64,000 nt of DNA from Thermoguttaceae bacterium (GTDB lineage: Bacteria; Planctomycetota; Planctomycetia; Pirellulales; Thermoguttaceae), in contig JANXBW010000018.1 in NCBI GenBank assembly GCA_025060325.1, positions 1-64,000 of the forward strand, written 5' to 3'. The position numbers and the translations under genes were made by a program. The notes beneath the pieces are model-generated. The model was not told where the DNA came from, did no database searches, and saw only the letters and a list, made by a program, of their open reading frames with translations. Positions 6,527-59,570 of the stretch are shown here, piece after piece (positions within the stretch are counted from its first letter, which is position 1; each line of letters begins with the position of its first letter).

Positions 6527-6783
6527 AACCAAGCTTAAAATCGCGCGAGGGAGTCAAGTTACAACGTAGAGAATGTGCTCCCCCTGTTTAGCGCCGGCAG
6601 TCGCGACGGATGTGTGCCACCGCCGGTAAACCCGTGCGGATAGGGCGGTAGCCTTGTGCCACTGCCACTCGTGGCAACCTCGCCTGAAAGCAGCTCGAAC
6701 TATCACCTAGCCGGCGAGGCCCGGGTTTTTGTCAAAGTGTTTCACACGGCTCATACTCTTTAACGGAACCGGATCGAAAGCCG
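6527..6783. other. glnB-glnD spacer
   Basis: 257 nt between two same-strand genes. It contains a small TGCCAC/GTGGCA palindrome (about 6665-6679) without a T-tract. Whether glnB and glnD share a transcript cannot be decided from sequence. Confidence 0.35.
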
Positions 6784-9426
6784 ATGCCCGAAGCTGCCCC
6801 TGATTCGTTGCGGTTAAGTCCACACGTTATCGCAGCCCGGGAGGAATTGACAGAGAACTTGTCACGCTGGGCCGATCTGGTGTGGACTGCCGATCCGTGG
6901 ACTATCGCCGCCGAAATTGTGCAGATCCGCCGAAAATTCGTCGTTGACGCAATCCAGCATGCTGCCCAGGAGGACGGTTGGCCGCTTGATCGCTTGGCAA
7001 CGCATTTGGCCGTGGTAGCCCATGGCGGCTTTGGTCGAGGTGATCTTGCCGCTTATTCCGACACGGATCTTCTCTTCCTGCTGGGAGGACCGTTTCGCAA
7101 AAAGCTAGCCACGACTATTGCGGCTATTCTGCGCGAGCTTGTTGACATCGGCCTTAACGTGGGACATTATGCCCTTACGCCCCGACAACTTATCGGCCTT
7201 GCGGGCAAGGACCCGGTCGTATTCACTTCCCTTTGCGAAGCGAAGTTTCTTTGGGGAAATAATGCGCTTTTTGCGCAAACGAAAGCGGCGCTTCGTCTTT
7301 GGACGGCCGTGTGCCGCAGCCGGCTCTATCATGGTATTTTGCGTGCTCGTCAGGAGGAACGCGAGCGATATGGCGAGACAGTCTATCTCAACGAGCCAAG
7401 CGTCAAACGCTCCGAAGGAGCACTGCGTGACCTACACATGATCCGATGGCTTTCGGCCTTGCAATCAGGCAACCCAAACTTCGCTAGCTTGGTAGCCCGC
7501 GGAATTCTTCGCTCGGAGGATGTAAGCTTACTTGAGGACGCGTGGAGCTTTCTTCTTCGGGTTCGTCAGGCGATGCATCTTCATCTGGGGCGTCCAACGG
7601 ATTTGCTCACTCGGGCCGAGCAAGTTTACTTAGCGGAAAAGTTTGGTTTCCGCCGGAGGGAGGGGCTTTTGCCGGCCGAGCTGTTTATGCGTGAATATTT
7701 CCGGCACACATACACAATTAGCCGCTGTGTACATGTTGCTGCGGAGGCCACGGCACCGTATGCTCGCGCCAAGCGAGCTTTGCAAATTCTTCTAGGGAAA
7801 AAACTGGGCCCGGACTGGGTAGTCAGCCAAGGGCGGATTCTACCCACTACTCGGGGACAGCGCCGACTGAAGCAGAGCTTGGAAGCTGTCCTCGAGTTTG
7901 TCCACGCGGCGATGGAATGCAATGCAGAAACCGATGCCCTTGTCTGGGAACTTATTCGCTCGGCACATAGTCAGCAGGTCAGTCCACCGACGCCGCGAGC
8001 TAAGTCGCTTTTTTGGGCAATCCTTGATCGTCCAGTCCGGCTGGGAGAGGTACTTAGCCGCCTCCATGAGGCCGGAATTCTTGAGCAATTTGTGCCGGGG
8101 TTAAATCGCGCAAAAGGCCTGCTCCAGTTTAACCAGTATCACAAATACACGGTGGATAGGCATTGCTTGCGGGCAGTGGACTGGGCTGCTTCGCTCCGCA
8201 TGGAGCCGGGACTATTGGGAGAGGTTTATCGGCAGTTGCCGCGAAAGGCCGTGCTCCACCTTGCTTTGTTGATGCATGATTTGGGCAAAGGATTCGAAGA
8301 AGACCACTCCCAAGTAGCCAGGCGTTTGGCTGAGGAAGCGGCTTCATTTTTGAGCCTGCCGGCCGAAGACGCCGAGGACCTCGTCTTCCTAGTGGAACGG
8401 CACCTTCTGATGAACCATCTTGCCTTCCGGCGCGATAGCGGGGATGAGCATCTTGTTGTTCAATTCGCGGTGGAAGTCGGGTCGGTGGAGCGCCTGAGCA
8501 TGCTCTTTATTTTGACGGCGGCCGATCTGGCGGCAGTAGGTCCGGGCGGCTGGAATTCATGGAAGGCCGATGTGCTGGCCGAACTTTATCAACGTGCCCA
8601 CCGACATCTGACCGGAGAAGTCGCTTCCGCCCCGCCGGAATCTTATGTTCGTCAACAATTGGAGGCCGTTCAGAAATGGTTGGGGCCTTCGGCCGAAAGC
8701 CCTTTCTTTGCTTCGCAGCTAGCCCACTTACCGGCCACTTATCTGAGTGCCACTCCTGCCTGGAGGGTCGCCGAGGATTTACGACTACTAGCTCGCCTTC
8801 GACGCAATGAAGTGCATGTGGAAGTCACGTGGCATCCGCAGCGGGAGACCGTCAGCATCCTCTTGGCAACTAACGAGGCTATTGGACCGGGGATTTTTCA
8901 TAAACTGGTGGGAGCAATTAGTAGCGAGGGCTTCGAGATCTTGGCCGCCGATATTCATACTCTCCACGACGGCTGGGTGATTGACCGCGTGGAAGCACGC
9001 GATCCAGACTACCCCGGTCAACCTCCGGCGGAAAGGTTGACCAACTTAGCTGACAAAATTCGCCAAAGTGTTCGCATTCCGGGGCCGGTAGACTTTCGTT
9101 TTCGGCAGAGCTGGTTCATGCGGCCGGCCAGCCGGCCCACTGTGGCTGCCGCCAAAACTCGTGTGCAAACTTCCAATAGAATTTCCCCCAATTTCACCGT
9201 CATCGATGTTTTTGCTGTGGACCGGCCGGGCTTGCTTTTTACCTTGGCCAAGACCCTTTTTGAAATGGGACTATCTGTGGCGCGGGCACGAATCGGGACC
9301 TACCTCGATCAGGTTGTTGACGTCTTTTATGTCACCGATCAAAACGGACTCCCGATCACCGACGACGCGAAGTTGGAGGAGATCCGTAATCGCCTCCTAA
9401 CGGCGGCGGAAGCCCTCCCCAAATAG
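6784..9426 (+). CDS. glnD: [Protein-PII] uridylyltransferase / uridylyl-removing enzyme
   Basis: 880 aa, close to the family norm. The nucleotidyltransferase motif GGFGRGDLAAYSDTD (residues 81-95) has the metal-binding Asp pair. The HD domain motif MHDLGKGFEEDH (His498-Asp499) would serve deuridylylation. Two ACT-like segments occupy the C-terminal 180 residues (VEVTWHPQRETVSILLATN, then TVIDVFAVDRPGLLFTLA), the glutamine-sensing part. All four modules are present, so the enzyme looks functional. It would add UMP to, or remove it from, Tyr51 of the GlnB encoded just upstream. Its last 30 bp overlap the 3' end of the convergent membrane-protein gene. The Shine-Dalgarno is weak. Confidence 0.96.
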   Translation: MPEAAPDSLRLSPHVIAAREELTENLSRWADLVWTADPWTIAAEIVQIRRKFVVDAIQHAAQEDGWPLDRLATHLAVVAHGGFGRGDLAAYSDTDLLFLLGGPFRKKLATTIAAILRELVDIGLNVGHYALTPRQLIGLAGKDPVVFTSLCEAKFLWGNNALFAQTKAALRLWTAVCRSRLYHGILRARQEERERYGETVYLNEPSVKRSEGALRDLHMIRWLSALQSGNPNFASLVARGILRSEDVSLLEDAWSFLLRVRQAMHLHLGRPTDLLTRAEQVYLAEKFGFRRREGLLPAELFMREYFRHTYTISRCVHVAAEATAPYARAKRALQILLGKKLGPDWVVSQGRILPTTRGQRRLKQSLEAVLEFVHAAMECNAETDALVWELIRSAHSQQVSPPTPRAKSLFWAILDRPVRLGEVLSRLHEAGILEQFVPGLNRAKGLLQFNQYHKYTVDRHCLRAVDWAASLRMEPGLLGEVYRQLPRKAVLHLALLMHDLGKGFEEDHSQVARRLAEEAASFLSLPAEDAEDLVFLVERHLLMNHLAFRRDSGDEHLVVQFAVEVGSVERLSMLFILTAADLAAVGPGGWNSWKADVLAELYQRAHRHLTGEVASAPPESYVRQQLEAVQKWLGPSAESPFFASQLAHLPATYLSATPAWRVAEDLRLLARLRRNEVHVEVTWHPQRETVSILLATNEAIGPGIFHKLVGAISSEGFEILAADIHTLHDGWVIDRVEARDPDYPGQPPAERLTNLADKIRQSVRIPGPVDFRFRQSWFMRPASRPTVAAAKTRVQTSNRISPNFTVIDVFAVDRPGLLFTLAKTLFEMGLSVARARIGTYLDQVVDVFYVTDQNGLPITDDAKLEEIRNRLLTAAEALPK

Positions 9427-11664
9427 CGTCCTGTCCCGAACCTGCTCCCCTAAGTTGATGGCAGCCTGATGGTAGATGCGCAGGACTAAGTCCCGCGACG
9501 CTAAGTTAACCCCGTGACGACTGGCCGCCGAGGAAAGGGAAAAAAGCACAGCATCCTGTGTCGACTGCCACCGGTCGGCATGCCACCGGTAAATGGCCAC
9601 AACCTCAGGATCTGACGGCCGAAAAAGATGTATCCGCCCCGAAAATGCAATCCATCTGAGCCACCAAGGAAGGGATGCTTTTACCTTTTTAGCCGCCTCT
9701 TCGCTGGAAAAAGCGGCGATCTTTTCACCTCCTGCGTCGAGGAGTGCCCGAAGAACTTCCGCTCGCCAAGTGTTCCTGTGCAGGTCCGTCTCTTGAACCA
9801 CCACATAACCCACCTGGGGTTGATCCACATAAGCCCACAAATCGTCTACACAAATCATGGGACGCCTTGACCACAGACCTGCGTAACCCAGCCAGTCGGC
9901 CACCCAGGTAGTTTGGTCCTTTTGGGACGCCAAATATGTGGCTGCCTCGTGAGAGGACAACGCTACCTGGTTAGGAATCGCCGTCAAGGCATCCACGCCA
10001 AGAAGACAAGTGATAAGCCCCACAGCGAGGTAGCCGCCACGGCGGCCGAGACAACGGCCCACTTGAAGGACACTCCATGCCGCGGGGCCTATCCCCACGA
10101 TCACCACTGGGCCGAAATGTCGAGCGGCGATATACCCATACTTCCAGACCCAAAAAAGGCAGGCTACCAAGTAAAAAGCAACAAAGTAACGAAGGAGAAG
10201 ATCCTGTGGACGGCAAAGCTTCCGCAGGGCCAAAGCTCCTACCAGAGCCGGCACAGCCAGCAAATATCCAAAGGCGTCCGCTAACTCCTGCACAGCAAGA
10301 ACGGGGCGGCGGAAAATCCATCGCAGCGTTGGCTCCGGAGAGGCCGGCCGGTATGCGAAGCTCTCCCGCAAAAAACATTTGGCTAAGCCAGTAGGGATGA
10401 GCCCAGCAGCCAGGTCCGTGTCAACAAGCTTCCCTTTGTCAACAACCTTTCCCTGGCCAACCGCCGGAAGATGAGGATCTTGGACCGAGTGGGTCCCCGC
10501 GGGGATGGGCCCCCGCTCCGCTGGCCAATGAGGATAGGGAGCTTTTGTCAACACATCATTAACCAGGGAACCGACAAGTTCCGATACCGACTGGGGACGA
10601 AGGATAAGCCAATAGGGCACAAAAACGCTTAATGCGCCGAGGGTCCAGCAACCGATAATTCTTGCCCGGTAGGACGCACTGGGGAAGAGCCAACCGTCTT
10701 TTTCCCTCGTTTTACCTCCCCCGTGCAGCCTGCCCACGTCGGCCCCGAAAGACGGTTTTTCGTCAACAAAAGAAAAGCTCTCGGCAATCTCTTGCCAGCA
10801 AGTCCGCCTCATCCTCGATCGGGCCCATGCAGTCATGCGGGGTAAAACTAAAGGGGAACTGAAAAAGACGAGGCCGAATGTGACCAGAATTAACCCGGCC
10901 CGATGGCTCATGGCTCCAAGCGCCGCCAGGAGGCCTGCAAGAAACGCCCAGCTTAATTCCTCCGAGTTGGCCTCCGCCCGGCAAGCCAAAAACCTTCGGG
11001 CAATAACCGAGCTTTTTCGGCATGGGTACGTAAGCGCTGACCCTTTACCTAGGTCAACTCCCGTAAGATCGCCGCGTTGACGAAGACTCGTTCCCGTCGG
11101 GAGAGATAGTCTTGACAATAATGCTCTCTTATTTCGGACAGCCTCGCCAAAGCGGACAAGACAGTAAATACTTCCGGCCGCGAAAGCTAAACCTATTGGA
11201 TCGGCAATCCCGTCCGGGCCTAGCCTTGCCATTTCCGGCAGAACGCAAAATAGTAACCCCGATGCGAGTCCACAGCTTGGCCCCAGTAACCGAGCGATCG
11301 TCATGTAAACAAGAAGGCAACTAAGGACAGCACCACCCGCGGCGGTAAGCTGGCTCGAGAAAGCCCAATCGACCCAATCCCCAACCAACCATGAGCGAAA
11401 GGCATGAATACTGGCCAACAAAATCGGATAAACAGGCTCCGAACCTTGTCGCCGAAGTGCTTGGTCCACACCCTCCGATTGAATTTCTTGAGCCAGGGCA
11501 ATCATCCGCAGGGCATCGGGGGCTGGGCCTCCGGACATCGTGATGAGTAAGGACTGAAAAGAGACGTTGATGGCAAGAAGCGTAAGAAGAGCGCCCAAGG
11601 GGTGCAAAAACGCACCCTTGTTCTGGCCCAGACTCGGCTCACTTACCCTCAAAGCCATCGTCAT
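9397..11664 (-). CDS. Polytopic membrane protein, glycosyltransferase family 39-like (PMT/ArnT type)
   Basis: 755 aa. A first membrane helix (LGALLTLLAINVSF) is followed by a luminal-type loop with APDALRMIALAQEI and EPVYPILLASIHAF. These match the usual layout of lipid-linked-sugar glycosyltransferases: an acidic residue after TM1, then a P-x-Y-P motif. Many hydrophobic segments follow (for example FLAGLLAALGAMSHRAGLILV and WTLGALSVFVPYWLIL). A long hydrophilic insertion around residues 180-330 is unusual. The likely role is transfer of a sugar from a polyprenyl-phosphate donor at the inner membrane; acceptor and sugar are unknown. The 3' end overlaps glnD by 30 bp, tail to tail. Two ATGs (11664, 11658) are possible. 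Confidence 0.65.
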   Translation of the reverse strand: MTMALRVSEPSLGQNKGAFLHPLGALLTLLAINVSFQSLLITMSGGPAPDALRMIALAQEIQSEGVDQALRRQGSEPVYPILLASIHAFRSWLVGDWVDWAFSSQLTAAGGAVLSCLLVYMTIARLLGPSCGLASGLLFCVLPEMARLGPDGIADPIGLAFAAGSIYCLVRFGEAVRNKRALLSRLSLPTGTSLRQRGDLTGVDLGKGSALTYPCRKSSVIARRFLACRAEANSEELSWAFLAGLLAALGAMSHRAGLILVTFGLVFFSSPLVLPRMTAWARSRMRRTCWQEIAESFSFVDEKPSFGADVGRLHGGGKTREKDGWLFPSASYRARIIGCWTLGALSVFVPYWLILRPQSVSELVGSLVNDVLTKAPYPHWPAERGPIPAGTHSVQDPHLPAVGQGKVVDKGKLVDTDLAAGLIPTGLAKCFLRESFAYRPASPEPTLRWIFRRPVLAVQELADAFGYLLAVPALVGALALRKLCRPQDLLLRYFVAFYLVACLFWVWKYGYIAARHFGPVVIVGIGPAAWSVLQVGRCLGRRGGYLAVGLITCLLGVDALTAIPNQVALSSHEAATYLASQKDQTTWVADWLGYAGLWSRRPMICVDDLWAYVDQPQVGYVVVQETDLHRNTWRAEVLRALLDAGGEKIAAFSSEEAAKKVKASLPWWLRWIAFSGRIHLFRPSDPEVVAIYRWHADRWQSTQDAVLFSLSSAASRHGVNLASRDLVLRIYHQAAINLGEQVRDRTLFGEGFRRR

Positions 11665-51830: not shown

Positions 51831-53168
51831 TCAGACACGGGCGACAAGGACGCCGGCTGCCTGTGCTTGGGGGGTATAAGCGAGCTGGATGAAGGCATCC
51901 CCGGCCGGCATACCACTTTCTCGGACGACGTTGACGGGGCATTCGGGATCAGGATGGCAGAAATTGCGAATGGGGTAAAGCTCCCCGGCTCTCAGCGCAA
52001 GGAGGCCGGCGATTAGCTCGGTAACAGCACTAGCACCTCCCAAATGACCGAGGTAGGCCTTAGCAGCCACAACGGGCGGGGCGCCGTTTGCCTGCCCGAA
52101 GACGCCGGCGATTGCTCTGGCTTCCGCTCGGTCTCCGCTTCGCGTCCCTAAGCCCTGAGCCGAGATGAAGGAGATTGTGGACCGCCTCTTCCCCTCTTGG
52201 GAAATGAGTCGTTGCAAGACCTGCCGGAGAGCACCTTCCACATCGGTTTGCCAGGAACTGCCGACCTGACACGCGGAAGCGCAGGCCACGATTTTTCCGT
52301 ACACTGGGGCAGCCCGTCTTGCCGCCGACTCGGCCGACTCCAGCACGATTGCCGCCGCTCCCTCGCCCAGCACCGTGCCACGACGCTGGCGATCGAAAGG
52401 CCGACACGATGTTGCCGGTTCACCACCGGCGACCACCTGCTCTTGCGTCAGCGCGTGGATAATCTTCATCGGATGGAGCCTGCTGCCGGTTGCGCCAACA
52501 ACCATCAAGTCGGCATGGCCGGCAGCAATAATCCGCGCCGCCTCGGCAATGCCGACCAGTCCGCCTGCTTCCCGGAGGGTGATCGAGTTACTCGGCCCGC
52601 AGAATTGACAATAAATCGCGATGTGACTGGCCGGCATATTAGGTAGATACTTCAGAAGCCATAACGGAGTCATTTGGGACAGGCCCTTTTCGCCCCAAAG
52701 GGCAAAGCGGAAAGCGCCGTCCTCGGTGCAAGCGCGGACAGCTGCGATAAATTCCTCCGGAGTTGTCAACAGATAATCGCAGCCGAAAACAACGCCGCAA
52801 CGATCCGACGGGAACAAATCGGGTTGCCAGCCCGCATCGGATAAGGCCCGCAAGGCCGCGGCCACGGCCATTTGCGACTCTCGGCACATTAGTTTGAGCC
52901 CCTTTCGTAAACTCTTAGCAATCTCAGCCGGGGGCGGGCCGAAATTGTCAAGCGATCCCGTGAACTGCCGCACCGGCGCCGCAATCCGGAGCGGTTCGGC
53001 TGCACTAGGTAAGCGTCCCGAGTTTTCGCCAAGTAGCGAAAACGGCCCAATACCGTAGCGCCCTTCGGTAAGACCAGTCCACAACTCCTCCGCGGTTAGC
53101 CCCAGCGGGCACACAACGCCAACGCCGGTGATCACGACATCACGCGATTCCGAACCTGCTTGCCACAT
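51831..53168 (-). CDS. Beta-ketoacyl-synthase-like protein lacking the catalytic cysteine
   Basis: About 445 aa. The thiolase fold is evident from DVVITGVGVVCPLGL, CGVVFGCDY, SCRPFDRQRRGTVLGEGAAAIVLE and AKAYLGHLGGASAVTELIAG. At the nucleophile position, where KAS enzymes have TACASG-like sequence, this protein reads GPSNSITLREAGGL, placing Glu200 where Cys belongs. The first catalytic His is also replaced (SAQGLGTR, Gln338), while Lys370 and His375 remain. It cannot perform Cys-dependent condensation; it resembles chain-length-factor or decarboxylase-like KS partners. Only the secretin-like gene separates it from fabF. ATG 53168 was chosen over TTG 53174. Confidence 0.88.
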   Translation of the reverse strand: MWQAGSESRDVVITGVGVVCPLGLTAEELWTGLTEGRYGIGPFSLLGENSGRLPSAAEPLRIAAPVRQFTGSLDNFGPPPAEIAKSLRKGLKLMCRESQMAVAAALRALSDAGWQPDLFPSDRCGVVFGCDYLLTTPEEFIAAVRACTEDGAFRFALWGEKGLSQMTPLWLLKYLPNMPASHIAIYCQFCGPSNSITLREAGGLVGIAEAARIIAAGHADLMVVGATGSRLHPMKIIHALTQEQVVAGGEPATSCRPFDRQRRGTVLGEGAAAIVLESAESAARRAAPVYGKIVACASACQVGSSWQTDVEGALRQVLQRLISQEGKRRSTISFISAQGLGTRSGDRAEARAIAGVFGQANGAPPVVAAKAYLGHLGGASAVTELIAGLLALRAGELYPIRNFCHPDPECPVNVVRESGMPAGDAFIQLAYTPQAQAAGVLVARV

Positions 53169-53480: not shown

Positions 53481-53717
53481 ATGGCTTCCGTAGGCCTGGT
53501 ACAAATGATCCCCCGGTGGGCGGGCGAGCGGTATCAGCCGATGGAGTACTGGTATTTCCATCTGCAGAGTTTTAATCGCTTGCTTTTCCGTTATGGCTTA
53601 TCCCAAGACTGGGAGTACCGACGGCCCTCCGGAGGCAGGGGCGGGCAAGGAGTTGGCACCTTTCAAGCCCACAGTTTGTGGATGTCAATAGTTCCTCCGG
53701 CCGCCGGTGCTGGGTAG
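53481..53717 (+). CDS. Possible small protein (78 aa)
   Basis: Low-confidence gene. ATG 53481 has GGGAGAGG 8 nt upstream. Residues 10-45 look protein-like and aromatic (RWAGERYQPMEYWYFHLQSF, then RLLFRYGLSQDWEYR), and the end is Gly/Pro/Ala-rich. The 3' end overlaps the convergent secretin-like gene by 33 bp. No family is recognised. It could be a real small protein or a chance frame in the 516-nt gap between the two minus-strand genes. Confidence 0.35.
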   Translation: MASVGLVQMIPRWAGERYQPMEYWYFHLQSFNRLLFRYGLSQDWEYRRPSGGRGGQGVGTFQAHSLWMSIVPPAAGAG

Positions 53718-55028
53718 TGTTGTGGAGGCAGCCTGAGCGGCGGAGGCACTAGCCGTCTTGACTTCGACTAGTATCAACACATTCCCTCGAGGGGAAGAGG
53801 CGGACAGGGGGAAAATCCACGAGGAGAAAAGGCTGCTTTCGACTGGGAGGGGAACCGGAGCCATTCCCAAGTCAACAAGCAAAGCTTGTTCGACCACCCA
53901 GCGGAAGCGTTCGTGAAAAGTGGCCTGAGCCCGTTGCGGGACCTCAAGCCGAGGACGCGAAGGTTGCCCCGGGCCGCCGGCAAATTCGAGCACCAAAGGA
54001 ACCAGCCGCTCAATTTGCGTCACCTCAAGCCGAAGGACGACATCTATCTGCTGCCGGTCCACACTGAGAAGCGGGCTGATCTCAAGAGTGAATCCTTCGT
54101 CAACAAAGGATGTCTCTGGGGAGAAGCCGGGCCATGTCTCCGGCCGCCATGCCAGATACTTAGTGTACGGCCTGGCCTTCGTGGCGGAGACGACGGTCAT
54201 CTGCCCATTGGGGATGGCAAGTTGCGGAGCGTGATGCTCCCGATAATCCGGCCGGCGCCGAAGATCGGCTAGGAGTAAGGAAGCGTCTTCGCGATACAAC
54301 ACCCATGCTTTGATGCCTGGCGAATGCACCTTGACCGGCGTTAGTGCGTGCAACCACGAGGCCTGCCACCCCGGGTTACTAACCACGATAAGGCGGACAC
54401 TCATGTTGATGATCTCGGCACCGTTAGCCGTGAAGCGACGAATCACGTCCGCGACCACATCCTGAATCTCAGGCGTATGGAACACCTGGACTTTTTCTCG
54501 CCCGACTGAAAGGAGCGCCGGCACCTCGCCGTGCCAAACTTCATAACCCGTCTCCCGAAGAATCCAGTCCAGGACAGCAACCTCGGGCCTTTTGGTTGTT
54601 TGGATCTGCGAAGTGTACACGCGGATATCATATTCCCGCCAAATCTGGCCGGCGTTGGCAGGGAGAGTCACCGGCTGAGACTGGGATCTCGAGGCCTCTC
54701 CTGTGGATGCAGTCGATGTGCCTGTGGCACTGGTCCAAGTTCCGACCGAAGATCGGTTCCCCCCTTGCGTCCCAACTGCCACAGAGGCGTTGGGCGACGC
54801 CGCGGAAGTTGCTCCTGGAGAGATCAGCTCTTGACGGCCAAGGGCGGGGATTTGTCTTTCGGCCGAGTCTTGACTTTGGGCGGAATTTTCGCCGGCTGCC
54901 CGCCACTGAAACCCCTGCCCGTAAAGCTCGGCCCGAGGCATCACCATAAGGAGAACAACTCCCAGTGCGACAGCAAACGTCCCCGGGAGGCGAGGCCCAC
55001 AGGCAGCCCAGAATACAGACGACCACAC
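53685..55028 (-). CDS. Secreted secretin-like (type II/III secretion N-domain type) planctomycete protein
   Basis: 447 aa. A signal peptide (FAVALGVVLLMVMPRAELYG) is followed by about 90 Ser/Thr/Ala/Gln-rich residues. The folded part has YDIRVYTSQIQTTKRPEVAVLDWILRETGYEVWHGEVPALL, then VQVFHTPEIQDVVADVIRRF, recalling secretin N-domain or NolW-like folds. LVVLRLEVTQIE-type strands (GFTLEISPLLSVDRQQIDVVLRLEV) match the core of secretin beta domains. I see no complete pore domain, so it may be a partial or atypical secretin. GTG 55028 has AAGGAGG 7 nt upstream. It lies downstream of fabF, past a probable terminator. Confidence 0.6.
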   Translation of the reverse strand: MWSSVFWAACGPRLPGTFAVALGVVLLMVMPRAELYGQGFQWRAAGENSAQSQDSAERQIPALGRQELISPGATSAASPNASVAVGTQGGNRSSVGTWTSATGTSTASTGEASRSQSQPVTLPANAGQIWREYDIRVYTSQIQTTKRPEVAVLDWILRETGYEVWHGEVPALLSVGREKVQVFHTPEIQDVVADVIRRFTANGAEIINMSVRLIVVSNPGWQASWLHALTPVKVHSPGIKAWVLYREDASLLLADLRRRPDYREHHAPQLAIPNGQMTVVSATKARPYTKYLAWRPETWPGFSPETSFVDEGFTLEISPLLSVDRQQIDVVLRLEVTQIERLVPLVLEFAGGPGQPSRPRLEVPQRAQATFHERFRWVVEQALLVDLGMAPVPLPVESSLFSSWIFPLSASSPRGNVLILVEVKTASASAAQAASTTLPSTGGRRNY

Positions 55029-55361: not shown

Positions 55362-56612
55362 CTATGCCCGACCGTTTCTTAGTTTCCCTACTAAGAGACA
55401 AGCGTTATGGCCGCCGAATCCGAAGCTGTTAGACAAAGCCACCGAAATATCCCGTTCGCGAGCTACATTGGGTGTGTAATCCAAATCGCACTCCGGGTCG
55501 GGTGTTTCGTAGTTGATCGTCGGCGGCACAACTCCGTGCACGATGGCAAGCACAGTAAAGATTAGCTCGACCCCACCACTTGCCCCCAACAAATGGCCGA
55601 TTTGGCTTTTCGTGCTAGAAATCGAGACTCGCTTCGCGTAGTCGCCAAAGACTTTCTTTATAGCGACGGTCTCTGCTTGGTCGCCTAAAGGCGTGCTTGT
55701 GCCGTGGGCGTTGATGTAGCCAACCTCTTCGGGGGAGACACCGCCGTCTTGGAGGGCAAGCGCCATTGCTCGAGCCGCCCCGACCCCGTCTTTGTCTGGC
55801 TGAGTAATGTGCGTTGCATCCGATGTGGTGCCGAAGCCGAGAAGTTCCGCGTAGATTCGGGCACCACGCTTACGGGCGTGCTCTAGCTCCTCCAGCACCA
55901 CAATGCCTGCGCCTTCGCTAAGAACGAAGCCGTCGCGCTGGGCGTCAAATGGTCGGCTCGCCCGTGGGGGGTCGTCATTTCGCTCGGAGAGGGCTCGCAT
56001 TGCGCTGAAAGCAGCAAGTCCCAATGGGGTGACAGCCGCCTCGCTCCCTCCGGTGATGACAATGTCGGTCTCTCCGTGGCGGATACTTCGGGCGGCATCG
56101 GCCACCGCATTGGCAGCGCTAGCGCAGGCGGTCGCGACGGCACCTGAGGGCCCGGTTAATCCAAAATGGATCGACACCTGGCCACTTGCCGCATTGGCCA
56201 TCATTTTCGGCACTGTGTACGGCGACACCTTCTCCGGTCCCTTATCGAGCATCCGCAGATGCTGGAGCTCGATCTCCCGCAGTCCGCCAACGCCTGACCC
56301 GATAATCACGCCGCACCGTGTGGGATCTTCTTTTGAGAAGTCCAGACCGGCGTCGCGAACGGCATCAATAGCGGCAACCAAGGCAAATTGGGTAAAACGG
56401 TCAAGCCTCTTGACTTCCTTGTCCGGGATGTACTGTTCCGGGTAAAAGTCGCTGACTTCCCCCCCAATTTGAGAACGGAACTGAGAGGCGTCAAACAGAC
56501 TTATCCGCCTGATCCCACTTTCGCCGCGGACAAGGCGTTCCCACACCGTGGGGACGTGACATCCCAAGGGGGTAACCAACCCCATTCCGGTAATGACTAC
56601 TCGGCGTCTCAT
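55362..56612 (-). CDS. fabF: 3-oxoacyl-[acyl-carrier-protein] synthase II
   Basis: 416 aa, normal length. The nucleophile is Cys163 in [10 protein letters not shown]. The two catalytic histidines appear in [15 protein letters not shown] and [11 protein letters not shown], with the conserved lysine in STKSQIGH. The N-terminus [17 protein letters not shown] is typical. It condenses malonyl-ACP with acyl-ACP in chain elongation. It starts 4 nt before the acpP stop (ATGA overlap), so the two are translationally coupled. The intact catalytic set contrasts with the degenerate KS-like gene about 2 kb downstream. Confidence 0.97.
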
Positions 56613-56893
56613 GATTCATCCGAAACAGCCTGTTCCTTGCTTTCCTGACTGCTGAGAACCGCCCGCTCAATGTGCTCAATCGCCTGGCCAACAGTCTGGA
56701 TTTTCTCCGCTACCTCTTCAGGAATGGATATTTGGAAGGCGTCCTCCAACGCCATGACAAGCTCGATCTGGTCGAGGGAATCAGCACCCAGATCATTGAT
56801 GAAGTGGCTTTCCGGGGTAATTTCGCTTCGGCTGACACCTAATTCTTCAGCAATAATGTCCATTACTTTTTCTGCGATTTTACTCACTTCCAC
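56609..56893 (-). CDS. acpP: Acyl carrier protein
   Basis: 94 aa. The phosphopantetheine serine is Ser39 in [17 protein letters not shown], and the preceding FINDLGAD is canonical. The C-terminus is extended and acidic ([11 protein letters not shown]). It carries growing acyl chains for FabD, FabF and FabG encoded alongside. It overlaps fabF by 4 nt. Upstream there is a 786-nt gap to fabG, unusually long within this cluster, so acpP-fabF may have their own promoter. The start ATG 56893 is preceded by a GGAGGA-type purine run. Confidence 0.97.
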
Positions 56894-57679: not shown

Positions 57680-58450
57680 TTAAGCCGTCAATCCTCCATC
57701 AACGACCAGGACATGGCCGGTGATAAACCCCGCGGCCTCACTGCAGAGAAATAAGACCGCATCAGCTACATCTTGGGGGTCCCCCAAGCGACCCAGAGGG
57801 GTACGTTGTTTAATTTCCTCGATCACTTCTTGGCCCAACTTGGCACTCATTTCTGTGCCGATAAACCCCGGAGCGACCGCGTTGACGGTGATATTACGTT
57901 TTGCTAACTCCCGCGCTAGCGTCCTTGTCAGACCAATAAGTCCCGCCTTGCTGGCTGAATAGTTGGCTTGGCCAGGATTGCCGATCATTCCCGAGACACT
58001 GGCGATGTTGACAATCCGTCCCGAATGGGCTCGGATCATCGCCTTGGCCACCGCCCGGCACATCAGGAAAGCACCCCGCAAGTTGACATTAAGTACTGCG
58101 TCCCATTCGTCGTCTTTCATCCGCAGGATAAGATTGTCCCGGGTAATGCCCGCGTTGTTGACAAGGATGTCAATCCGCGAAAATGTCTTAAGCACGTCTT
58201 GGACCATGCGGTCCACCTGAGCAGCATCACTGACGTCGCACACCCAGCCCTTGGCCCGAAAACCTTTGCTTTCAATTCCGGCGACGGTTCCATCCAAAAG
58301 CTCCTTATTGATGTCCACACATGCTACAGTGGCCCCGGCATCGGCTAGCGAAAAGGCAATCGCCTGACCGATTCCTCGTCCAGCGCCAGTAACAAGCGCC
58401 ACCTTGTCCCTCAGATCCACGCGTAAACGGGATGCGGTTTCCGCGCTCAT
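57680..58450 (-). CDS. fabG: 3-oxoacyl-[acyl-carrier-protein] reductase
   Basis: 256 aa. The NADPH-binding TGAGRGIGQAIA is at residues 21-32, then NNAGITRDNLILRMKDDEWD, the FabG-specific stretch. The catalytic triad reads Ser151 (IASVSG), Tyr164 and Lys168 (QANYSASKAG). The C-terminus FITGHVLVVDGG completes the SDR fold. It reduces 3-ketoacyl-ACP. The neighbours fabD upstream and acpP downstream support the assignment. ATG 58450 begins the longest frame. Confidence 0.97.
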   Translation of the reverse strand: MSAETASRLRVDLRDKVALVTGAGRGIGQAIAFSLADAGATVACVDINKELLDGTVAGIESKGFRAKGWVCDVSDAAQVDRMVQDVLKTFSRIDILVNNAGITRDNLILRMKDDEWDAVLNVNLRGAFLMCRAVAKAMIRAHSGRIVNIASVSGMIGNPGQANYSASKAGLIGLTRTLARELAKRNITVNAVAPGFIGTEMSAKLGQEVIEEIKQRTPLGRLGDPQDVADAVLFLCSEAAGFITGHVLVVDGGLTA

Positions 58451-58661: not shown

Positions 58662-59570
58662 CTATACTTCTACCCCGTAACAAGCCACGTTCCTGTCGAT
58701 CCGCCGCATCAGTCCACGTAAAACACGCCCAGGCCCCACTTCGTAAAACTGGTCGAAACCGGCCGCCAGCAGGTACCGCATCGATTCCTCCCAGCGAACC
58801 GGCTCGATAACTTGCCGGATCAACAGCTCCCGAATCTCCTCCGGATCATCGTGCGGCCGGGCATCCACGTTAGAGATGACGGGAATCCGAGGTCGACGCA
58901 GCCGGGCCGTTGCGATGGCCTCAGCCAACTTTTGGTCGGCAGGCTTCATAATCGGGGTATGAAATGCCCCTGCGACTGCAACCGGTACTACCCGCGAGGC
59001 ACCCGCCTTGACCGCTAAATCCGCGGCCCGTTCGCAAGCTGCCGTTGTCCCCGAAATCACGGTAACCCCTGGGCAAAGGAGGTTGGCTACTCGCAGGATT
59101 TCGCCCTGGCTTGCCTGTTCGCAGATGCGCTCGACCTCCACCAATTCAAGCCCCAGGATGCTGATCATGCCTCCCGGTGTGGCCTCTGAGGCCTGCTGCA
59201 TTGCTGCCCCTCGGCGCTGGACGATAAGCAGCCCCTCGGGAAACTCCATTACGCCGGCAAAAACCAGGGCGCTGTATTCACCCAGGCTGAGCCCGGCCGC
59301 GGCCTCGCAGGCGAGCACGACGTCGGGAGACTCCGCCCGGAGAGCCTCGACGGCGGCTAAACTGGTCACAAAGATGGCAGGCTGACTGTAAATGGTGGAA
59401 TCCAAAGTCTCGGCCGGCCCGTTGAAGCAAAGCTGGGCCAGATCGTACCCCAGGATTTTGCCTGCCTCATCAAACAAACGGCGAGCTGCGGGAAGCGACT
59501 CGTAAAGCCGCTTCCCCATTCCGACAAACTGGGCGCCCTGCCCGGGGAAAAGAAAGGCAATTCGGCTCAA
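58662..59570 (-). CDS. fabD: Malonyl-CoA:ACP transacylase
   Basis: 302 aa. FLFPGQGAQFVGMG lies at the N-terminus. The serine nucleophile is Ser95 in AAGLSLGEYSALVFAG, a GxSxG motif in which the usual His after the first Gly is Leu. The conserved arginine is in IVQRRGAAMQ and the general-base His204 in VAGAFHTPIM. It loads malonyl groups onto AcpP for the FabF reaction. It lies 33 nt after rpmF and 211 nt before fabG on the same strand. plsX and fabH, common neighbours in other bacteria, are absent between rpmF and fabD. Confidence 0.96.
   Translation of the reverse strand: MSRIAFLFPGQGAQFVGMGKRLYESLPAARRLFDEAGKILGYDLAQLCFNGPAETLDSTIYSQPAIFVTSLAAVEALRAESPDVVLACEAAAGLSLGEYSALVFAGVMEFPEGLLIVQRRGAAMQQASEATPGGMISILGLELVEVERICEQASQGEILRVANLLCPGVTVISGTTAACERAADLAVKAGASRVVPVAVAGAFHTPIMKPADQKLAEAIATARLRRPRIPVISNVDARPHDDPEEIRELLIRQVIEPVRWEESMRYLLAAGFDQFYEVGPGRVLRGLMRRIDRNVACYGVEV

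Follow-up and report, generated by a model that had tools for sequence, protein, structure and literature searches.

A conserved ketosynthase-like protein with glutamate in place of the catalytic cysteine in Planctomycetota, a probable non-catalytic KSbeta-like subunit

Introduction

What does a ketosynthase-like protein do when glutamate occupies the place of its catalytic cysteine? This question is raised by a gene in a stretch of 64,000 nucleotides from a Thermoguttaceae bacterium (contig JANXBW010000018.1, positions 1 to 64,000; hereafter, the window), which encodes the 445-residue protein P0001 (51831..53168, minus strand). A sequence-only reading of the window had proposed that the protein either supplies primers by decarboxylating malonyl-ACP or acts as a partner subunit of a FabF encoded nearby. 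In the current study, both proposals were weighed together with further alternatives, using alignments, phylogeny, gene neighbourhoods and a structural model.

Results

The P0001 gene runs on the minus strand from window position 53168 to 51834, followed by its stop codon at 51831-51833, and gives 445 aa from an ATG; an alternative start, TTG, lies two codons earlier (53174). The protein matches both Pfam ketosynthase domains, ketoacyl-synt (PF00109, 2.9e-36) and Ketoacyl-synt_C (PF02801, 1.7e-18), and these matches, together with the comparison of its AF2 model (pLDDT 90, pTM 0.90) with PDB structures, place it in the KAS I/II thiolase fold. The earlier description of a ketosynthase-like protein with the family fold intact, given with no strand, is thereby confirmed for a complete KAS I/II-type protein on the minus strand. 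With the NCBIfam fabF model (TIGR03150, cut-off 493.75), P0001 scored 207.2 bits, below the cut-off, and the window FabF (L004), to which P0001 is 30% identical over 419 residues, scored 635 bits. A comparison with the gene of a sister genome, to which it is 69% identical, gave differences at 64% of third and 17% of second codon positions, with zero stop codons and with dS saturated. This large excess of third-position differences in an open frame indicates that the P0001 gene is under purifying selection.

Alignment to the window FabF placed Glu200 (LREAGG; codon 52569..52571) at the position of the nucleophilic Cys and Gln338 (AQGLGT; codon 52155..52157) at that of the first catalytic His, and showed that Lys370 (codon 52059..52061), aligned to the conserved FabF Lys, and His375 (codon 52044..52046), at the second catalytic His position, are retained, all four codons lying on the minus strand. 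The four residues had been read correctly from the sequence. Thus, where a condensing KAS II has a Cys-His-His triad, P0001 has Glu, Gln and His. Additionally, the GFGGxN loop with its gating Phe is replaced in P0001 and its orthologs (group A) by a PQGQA-like motif, whose Q436 is present in 56/56 aligned sequences. Positions 88, 89, 92 and 96 remain basic; they lie in a helix that aligns to the ACP-docking helix of FabF.

For the survey of homologs, 84,980 named genomes were scanned and at least 546 relatives were obtained, the best 80 of which (42-69% identity) were used as orthologs; all of these were titled Planctomycetota or lower groups, apart from one "bacterium" and with six Kuenenia titles taken as mislabelled. 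Among these best 80 of at least 546 relatives, the nucleophilic Cys was absent and Glu stood in its place in 80/80, Lys was found at position 370 in 79/80 and Asn at position 375 in 79/80, and position 338 held His in 72, Gln in 5, Phe in 2 and Asn in 1. The combined Cys/His/Lys/His positions of the same best 80 read EHKN in 71, EQKN in 4, EFKN in 2, and EQKH, ENKN and EHSN in one each. Glu200 was also found in 56/56 rows of alignment A2, which has 43 invariant columns among its 56 sequences. Judged by these alignments, Glu is fixed in group A, and Gln338 and His375 are local departures from the family.

In the order, 40 genomes were sampled, our own included, and an ortholog was defined by an E value of 3.5e-82 or better with at least 41% identity. 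By this definition group A occurs in 36/40 genomes, a count that takes in G020 (partial) and G022 (the weakest, which falls with group A in a small tree), and a match at E <= 1e-50 was found in 39/40. The residue at the Cys position was Glu in 34/34 of the group A sequences of the order. The sequence-only reading had named Cys in sister genomes, or a loss of conservation, as what would reveal a local mutation or a pseudogene. Neither was found for Glu200, and its interpretation as a local mutation or as decay was rejected, given Glu in every ortholog and the purifying selection. Gln338 fared differently: as most relatives have His there, it is a local change, and of the two substitutions proposed for a survey only Glu200 proved to be conserved. 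That P0001 is a decaying FabF duplicate devoid of function is hardly credible, for although Gln338 is a local loss of the kind expected from decay, the open frame under purifying selection, the 43 invariant columns and the presence of the gene in 36 of the 40 genomes all argue against it.

The same residues bear on whether P0001 may be a malonyl-ACP decarboxylase of the KSQ-like type, which would convert malonyl-ACP to acetyl-ACP and so prime FabF. Known decarboxylases include ketosynthases with Cys changed to Gln, to which Glu is isosteric; most orthologs retain His338 and Lys370, and their combination of His with Asn is like the active-site pair of KAS III. However, a KSQ has Gln for Cys and keeps both His, whereas P0001 has Glu200 and Gln338, His338 is absent in 8/80 orthologs and Asn375 is present in 79/80. 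Furthermore, FabH matches were obtained in 20/20 genomes searched, our own included (15 above the family cut-off), with two above the cut-off in our own genome, and with FabH present primer supply by P0001 is not needed. These data disfavour the earlier proposal of a primer-supplying decarboxylase and make it rather improbable.

A second paralog, termed group B, is encoded on contig C14 of our own genome and is 40% identical to P0001. At E <= 1e-100, group B was found in 31/40 genomes of the order, and the residue at the Cys position of the 31 group B sequences examined was Glu in 19, Asp in 7, Arg in 3, Gly in 1 and Ser in 1, meaning that an acid is retained in 26/31 and that the acidic residue is not fixed clade-wide. 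The five non-acidic members (G010, G014, G017, G022 and G039; Arg, Gly or Ser) include four with an acid one residue earlier, in which the charge looks as if shifted by one position. In 6/20 regions (L085, L086, L088, L091, L098 and L099), group B adjoins a divergent gene of a single cluster (c9). By its sequence, the c9 gene beside group B looks like a fatty-acid desaturase, which suggests a link of group B and this neighbour to membrane lipid adjustment.

The phylogenetic position of these proteins was estimated by two quick tree searches with SH-aLRT as the only support measure. In the first tree, of 87 ketosynthases left after duplicates were removed from 110, the 71 Glu/Asp proteins and L099 (Ser) formed one clade of 72 (SH-aLRT 99). 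The second tree, of 83 rows, some of them drawn from 20 regions in other genomes, recovered the same acidic clade with 54 rows (SH-aLRT 99), namely 51 with Glu/Asp, one with Ser, one with Asn and one with Gln, the last being a distant clade member (L224); the Cys-containing ketosynthases of the L003 type formed a separate clade of 18 rows (SH-aLRT 99). P0001 is accordingly described here as a member of group A of this acidic-residue clade. The aryl-polyene ketosynthases of E. coli CFT073 were also tried as a yardstick and were unhelpful, as both translated ones have Cys.

In the window, a fabD-fabG-acpP-fabF set on the minus strand ends 2.2 kb upstream of the P0001 gene, which shares its strand. 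The set comprises FabD malonyl-CoA:ACP transacylase (58662..59570; TIGR00128, 312 bits, cut-off 260.9), a FabG-type ketoacyl-ACP reductase (57680..58450; TIGR01830, 330 bits, cut-off 297.75), the acyl carrier protein AcpP (56609..56893; PF00550 and NCBIfam acyl carrier protein models) and FabF (55362..56612), which has an intact Cys-His-Lys-His and is a candidate partner of P0001. The FabF that the earlier reading had placed 2 kb away does end 2.2 kb upstream of the P0001 gene. Between the two lies a minus-strand ORF of 447 aa (53685..55028) for which a Pfam and NCBIfam search returned no match; ORFs related to it are found just upstream of group A in 11/21 group A loci, the window included.

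The neighbourhood varies among relatives. Group A and FabF are encoded on the same strand within 3 kb in 10/33 genomes having both, and genes read as nusA-infB-rbfA follow group A in 9/20 regions, sometimes past another ORF, with infB confirmed for some. No L003-type ketosynthase was seen among the seven ORFs on either side of group A in the window and 20 group A regions. A scan for promoters and terminators across the operon gave 0 promoters and 4 terminator-like sites, both below the means of shuffled sequences.

A different arrangement was found elsewhere in the phylum, where 292 genomes were searched and 20 regions around acidic or divergent ketosynthase matches were taken. In 17/20 regions, a member of the acidic clade is encoded on the same strand and upstream of an intact Cys-His-Lys-His ketosynthase of the L003 type, within 0.7 kb. 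Five of the 20 regions had been chosen because two ketosynthase matches were already listed as adjacent, and the pair was seen in 13/15 of the others. The clade members of the 17 pairs comprise 15 with Glu/Asp, one with Gln and one with Asn. The gap is between -8 and 22 bp in six pairs and 373 to 661 bp in five, 661 bp being the longest, and is undefined in three (L224, L227 and L232), where over-long frames overlap. The longest belongs to the G251 pair (L215), in which one protein belongs to the group A lineage and another ORF separates the two genes. The three regions without a pair are an anammox genome with other ketosynthases, a region with no such ketosynthase in 12 kb, and a contig end. 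A DH-ACP-DH set, once with KR, directly precedes the pair in 5/17, and none was seen adjoining the pair in 12/17. As read from the gene order, the succession of clade member and intact ketosynthase is the KSalpha/KSbeta ("chain length factor") arrangement.

The anammox genome G303, which holds hydrazine synthase alpha, encodes two Cys-less ketosynthases (L217, 5304-6699 and 7292-8594) in which Phe and Ala replace the Cys and Asp replaces the first His; one of the two adjoins an intact ketosynthase. Both fall outside the acidic clade, and a link of this clade to the anammox ketosynthases was rejected.

The 17 clade members outside the class also inform the two enzymatic alternatives. The acid is retained in 15 of them and the first His in 6, and their four-position patterns are EHKN, EHKH, ESKL, ESKN, EFKM, EFKN, EFAN, EFVN, EHTD, EHTE, DHKN, QGRE and NNKH. 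Decarboxylation requires the two His, according to Rattray et al. (PMC2649909). The retention of the acid where the first His is lost (11/17 lack this His) indicates that the acid is not tied to a decarboxylation machinery and is unlikely to be a catalytic partner of the His, which further weakens the KSQ-like alternative.

The second enzymatic alternative is a new chemistry, in which the Glu/Asp carboxylate would attack an acyl thioester or act as a base in acyl transfer or hydrolysis. CoA-transferases use Glu or Asp in this manner, both Glu200 and Lys370 are nearly or wholly invariant among the group A orthologs (80/80 and 79/80), and the exchange of Glu for Asp in group B (19 and 7 of 31) fits a need for charge. 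Against this stand the Arg, Gly and Ser of group B (5/31) and the Gln and Asn elsewhere, the loss across the phylum of the surrounding His, Lys and Asn, and the tandem pairing with an intact ketosynthase, which points to a subunit. We regard such an enzyme as unlikely, while the mostly conserved Lys370 and His338 would leave room for a catalytic role in the order.

Two intact ketosynthases of our own genome were considered as partners of P0001. The first is the window FabF; the second is the KSalpha of a DH-KR-ACP-DH-KS cassette on contig C66 (L235 6558-10557), which lacks an acidic ketosynthase and comprises DH 6558-7073, KR 7206-7976, ACP 8058-8483, DH 8600-9112 and KS 9259-10557. The partner ketosynthases of the pairs in other genomes are 52-68% identical to this C66 enzyme, and an L003-type partner ketosynthase is present in 38/40 genomes of the order, our own included. 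The feature of being encoded beside KSalpha, found in 17/20 regions of other genomes, is divided in our own genome between a KSalpha on contig C66 and a FabF 2.2 kb upstream. The C66 cassette is fatty-acid/polyketide-like with a long ACP (141 aa), and similar sets occur in most of 12 such regions. Our own genome also encodes a very divergent intact ketosynthase on a long branch (L005, contig C4, 1066-2331), beside a leucine-rich-repeat-like ORF.

Rate covariation was estimated for these pairs. With InfB as the sole control, group A and FabF gave a rho of 0.51 (p 6e-5, 57 branches, 30 genomes). On a tree of InfB and GyrB, for which 21/30 genomes were used (17/25 with group B) after exclusion of the GyrB rows of G036, G037 and G039, whose frame a motif search did not recover, and of six genomes without a GyrB locus among the 30 listed, the value was 0.28 for A-FabF and 0.22 for A-KSalpha, and the control pair A-GyrB gave 0.53, which is at least as high. 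The covariation that had at first favoured FabF thus singled out neither candidate. Covariation was also considered for a further alternative, namely that the A and B paralogs dimerise with each other and bind ACP or lipid intermediates without condensing them, as a carrier or regulator. Most genomes of the order encode both paralogs, and their covariation was 0.58 with InfB as the sole control; however, it dropped to 0.23 when GyrB was added, G024 (99% complete) has group A but no group B match, G006 (94%) has group B but no group A, and outside the class the clade members pair with a Cys ketosynthase. An A-B dimer is therefore very unlikely.

Discussion

Based on this evidence, we propose that P0001 is a non-catalytic KSbeta-like subunit that would form a heterodimer with an intact FabF-type ketosynthase, either the window FabF or the C66 KSalpha, and we give this reading a probability of about 0.65. 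Against it weigh the lack of an L003-type ketosynthase close to group A, the 12/17 pairs with no DH-ACP-DH set adjoining, the non-acidic members of group B, the covariation and fold comparisons, which single out neither a partner nor the CLF, and the mostly conserved Lys370 and His338 of the order. The heterodimer, the absence of catalysis and the role of Glu are what we infer from the alignments and the gene pairs. The part of the earlier reading that saw a partner subunit is supported by analogy with the 17 pairs in 20 regions, whereas the nearby FabF as that specific partner is only possible, being within 3 kb in 10/33 genomes. The window FabF is a possible partner owing to its shared neighbourhood with group A, and the C66 KSalpha is at least as likely, since clade members, including L215 of the group A lineage, are paired with that type of ketosynthase.

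In the proposed mechanism, P0001 would have kept the ketosynthase fold, would have ceased to form an acyl-enzyme and would act by dimerising with the intact enzyme. The partner would contribute Cys-His-His and make the C-C bond, and P0001 would contribute its side of the dimer and of the acyl tunnel, as well as a basic face for ACP docking. Known chain length factors have Gln at the Cys position, and Glu200 would occupy the place of this Gln; this isosteric replacement could mimic the acylated Cys and thereby hold the pocket in one state. In the ishigamide KS-CLF, ACP contacts the CLF (PMC8358021), which is a precedent for ACP docking on a dead subunit.

A more far-reaching version would extend this order-wide: the P0001-type protein would pair with the FabF of the adjacent fab set, and primary fatty-acid elongation would be carried out by a heterodimeric KS-KSbeta in which the fixed carboxylate of the dead subunit imitates the acyl-enzyme. 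We hold this version to be tentative and on the doubtful side; if true, primary lipid synthesis would have adopted the chain-length-factor principle from secondary metabolism.

The following data were found in the literature. In Rhodopirellula baltica, RB4527 (NP_866153) has Glu163, His298, Lys328, Asn333 and Pro at Phe392, and RB3714 (NP_865682) carries Asp163, with Ile in place of the Lys; these two proteins are treated as odd FabF paralogs with no function given (Rattray et al. 2009, PMC2649909, Table 2). As tabulated there, NP_866153 matches the common group A pattern (EHKN plus Pro at Phe392). Accordingly, the Glu variant, called unusual in the sequence-only reading, is indeed unusual as chemistry and is not new, Glu and Asp having been tabulated in 2009. 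No description of a Glu/Asp KSbeta family was found in the literature searched, which included passages of PMC2649909, PMC4790861, PMC8358021, PMC7949117, PMC10132072 and PMC3098273. The residue change is thus already known in two proteins, and a dead ketosynthase partner is a known kind of thing; new, as far as we have seen, are the acidic clade itself, how well it is conserved, and the pairing of its members in tandem.

These results turn two scattered R. baltica oddities into a conserved protein clade of Planctomycetota with a testable job. Non-canonical ketosynthases are found among the lipid synthesis genes of this phylum and among the proposed ladderane genes of anammox bacteria, and some of them would be accounted for by a dead-subunit partner. 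For the acidic clade, a mere hit to the ketosynthase domain misleads, and its members are not countable as condensing enzymes.

Concerning known systems, a close likeness is with the type II PKS subunit called KSbeta or chain length factor (actinorhodin CLF 1tqy_B, Iga12 and AntE), which shares the common KS fold without the nucleophilic Cys; similarly, homologs of P0001 are encoded beside an intact ketosynthase, some with DH and ACP genes. The P0001 model matches the structures of the actinorhodin CLF (1tqy_B; Z 54.0, rmsd 2.3 A, 27% identity) and of FabF (KAS II; 2alm, Z 56.8), and the 50 PDB entries listed by VIA-align, which are of the FabF/FabB type plus the actinorhodin CLF, range from Z 53.7 to 56.8, with the CLF not separated from FabF. 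P0001 differs from FabF in that it lacks the Cys, one catalytic His and the gating GFGGxN loop. It differs from the chain length factors in having Glu200 and not the typical Gln, and in sitting by a fab set and not adjacent to KSalpha, and its heterodimer is a prediction. According to a 2023 catalogue of chain length factors (PMC10132072), KS-CLF pairs occur in 14 phyla, Planctomycetes included, and the definition of a CLF may need widening. The anammox non-canonical FabFs Kuste3606 and Kuste2805 resemble the acidic clade in that the locus number of the Cys-less kuste3606 adjoins that of the canonical FabF kuste3605 (PMC4790861). They differ from it in that their Cys is replaced by Val or Phe, not by an acid (PMC2649909).
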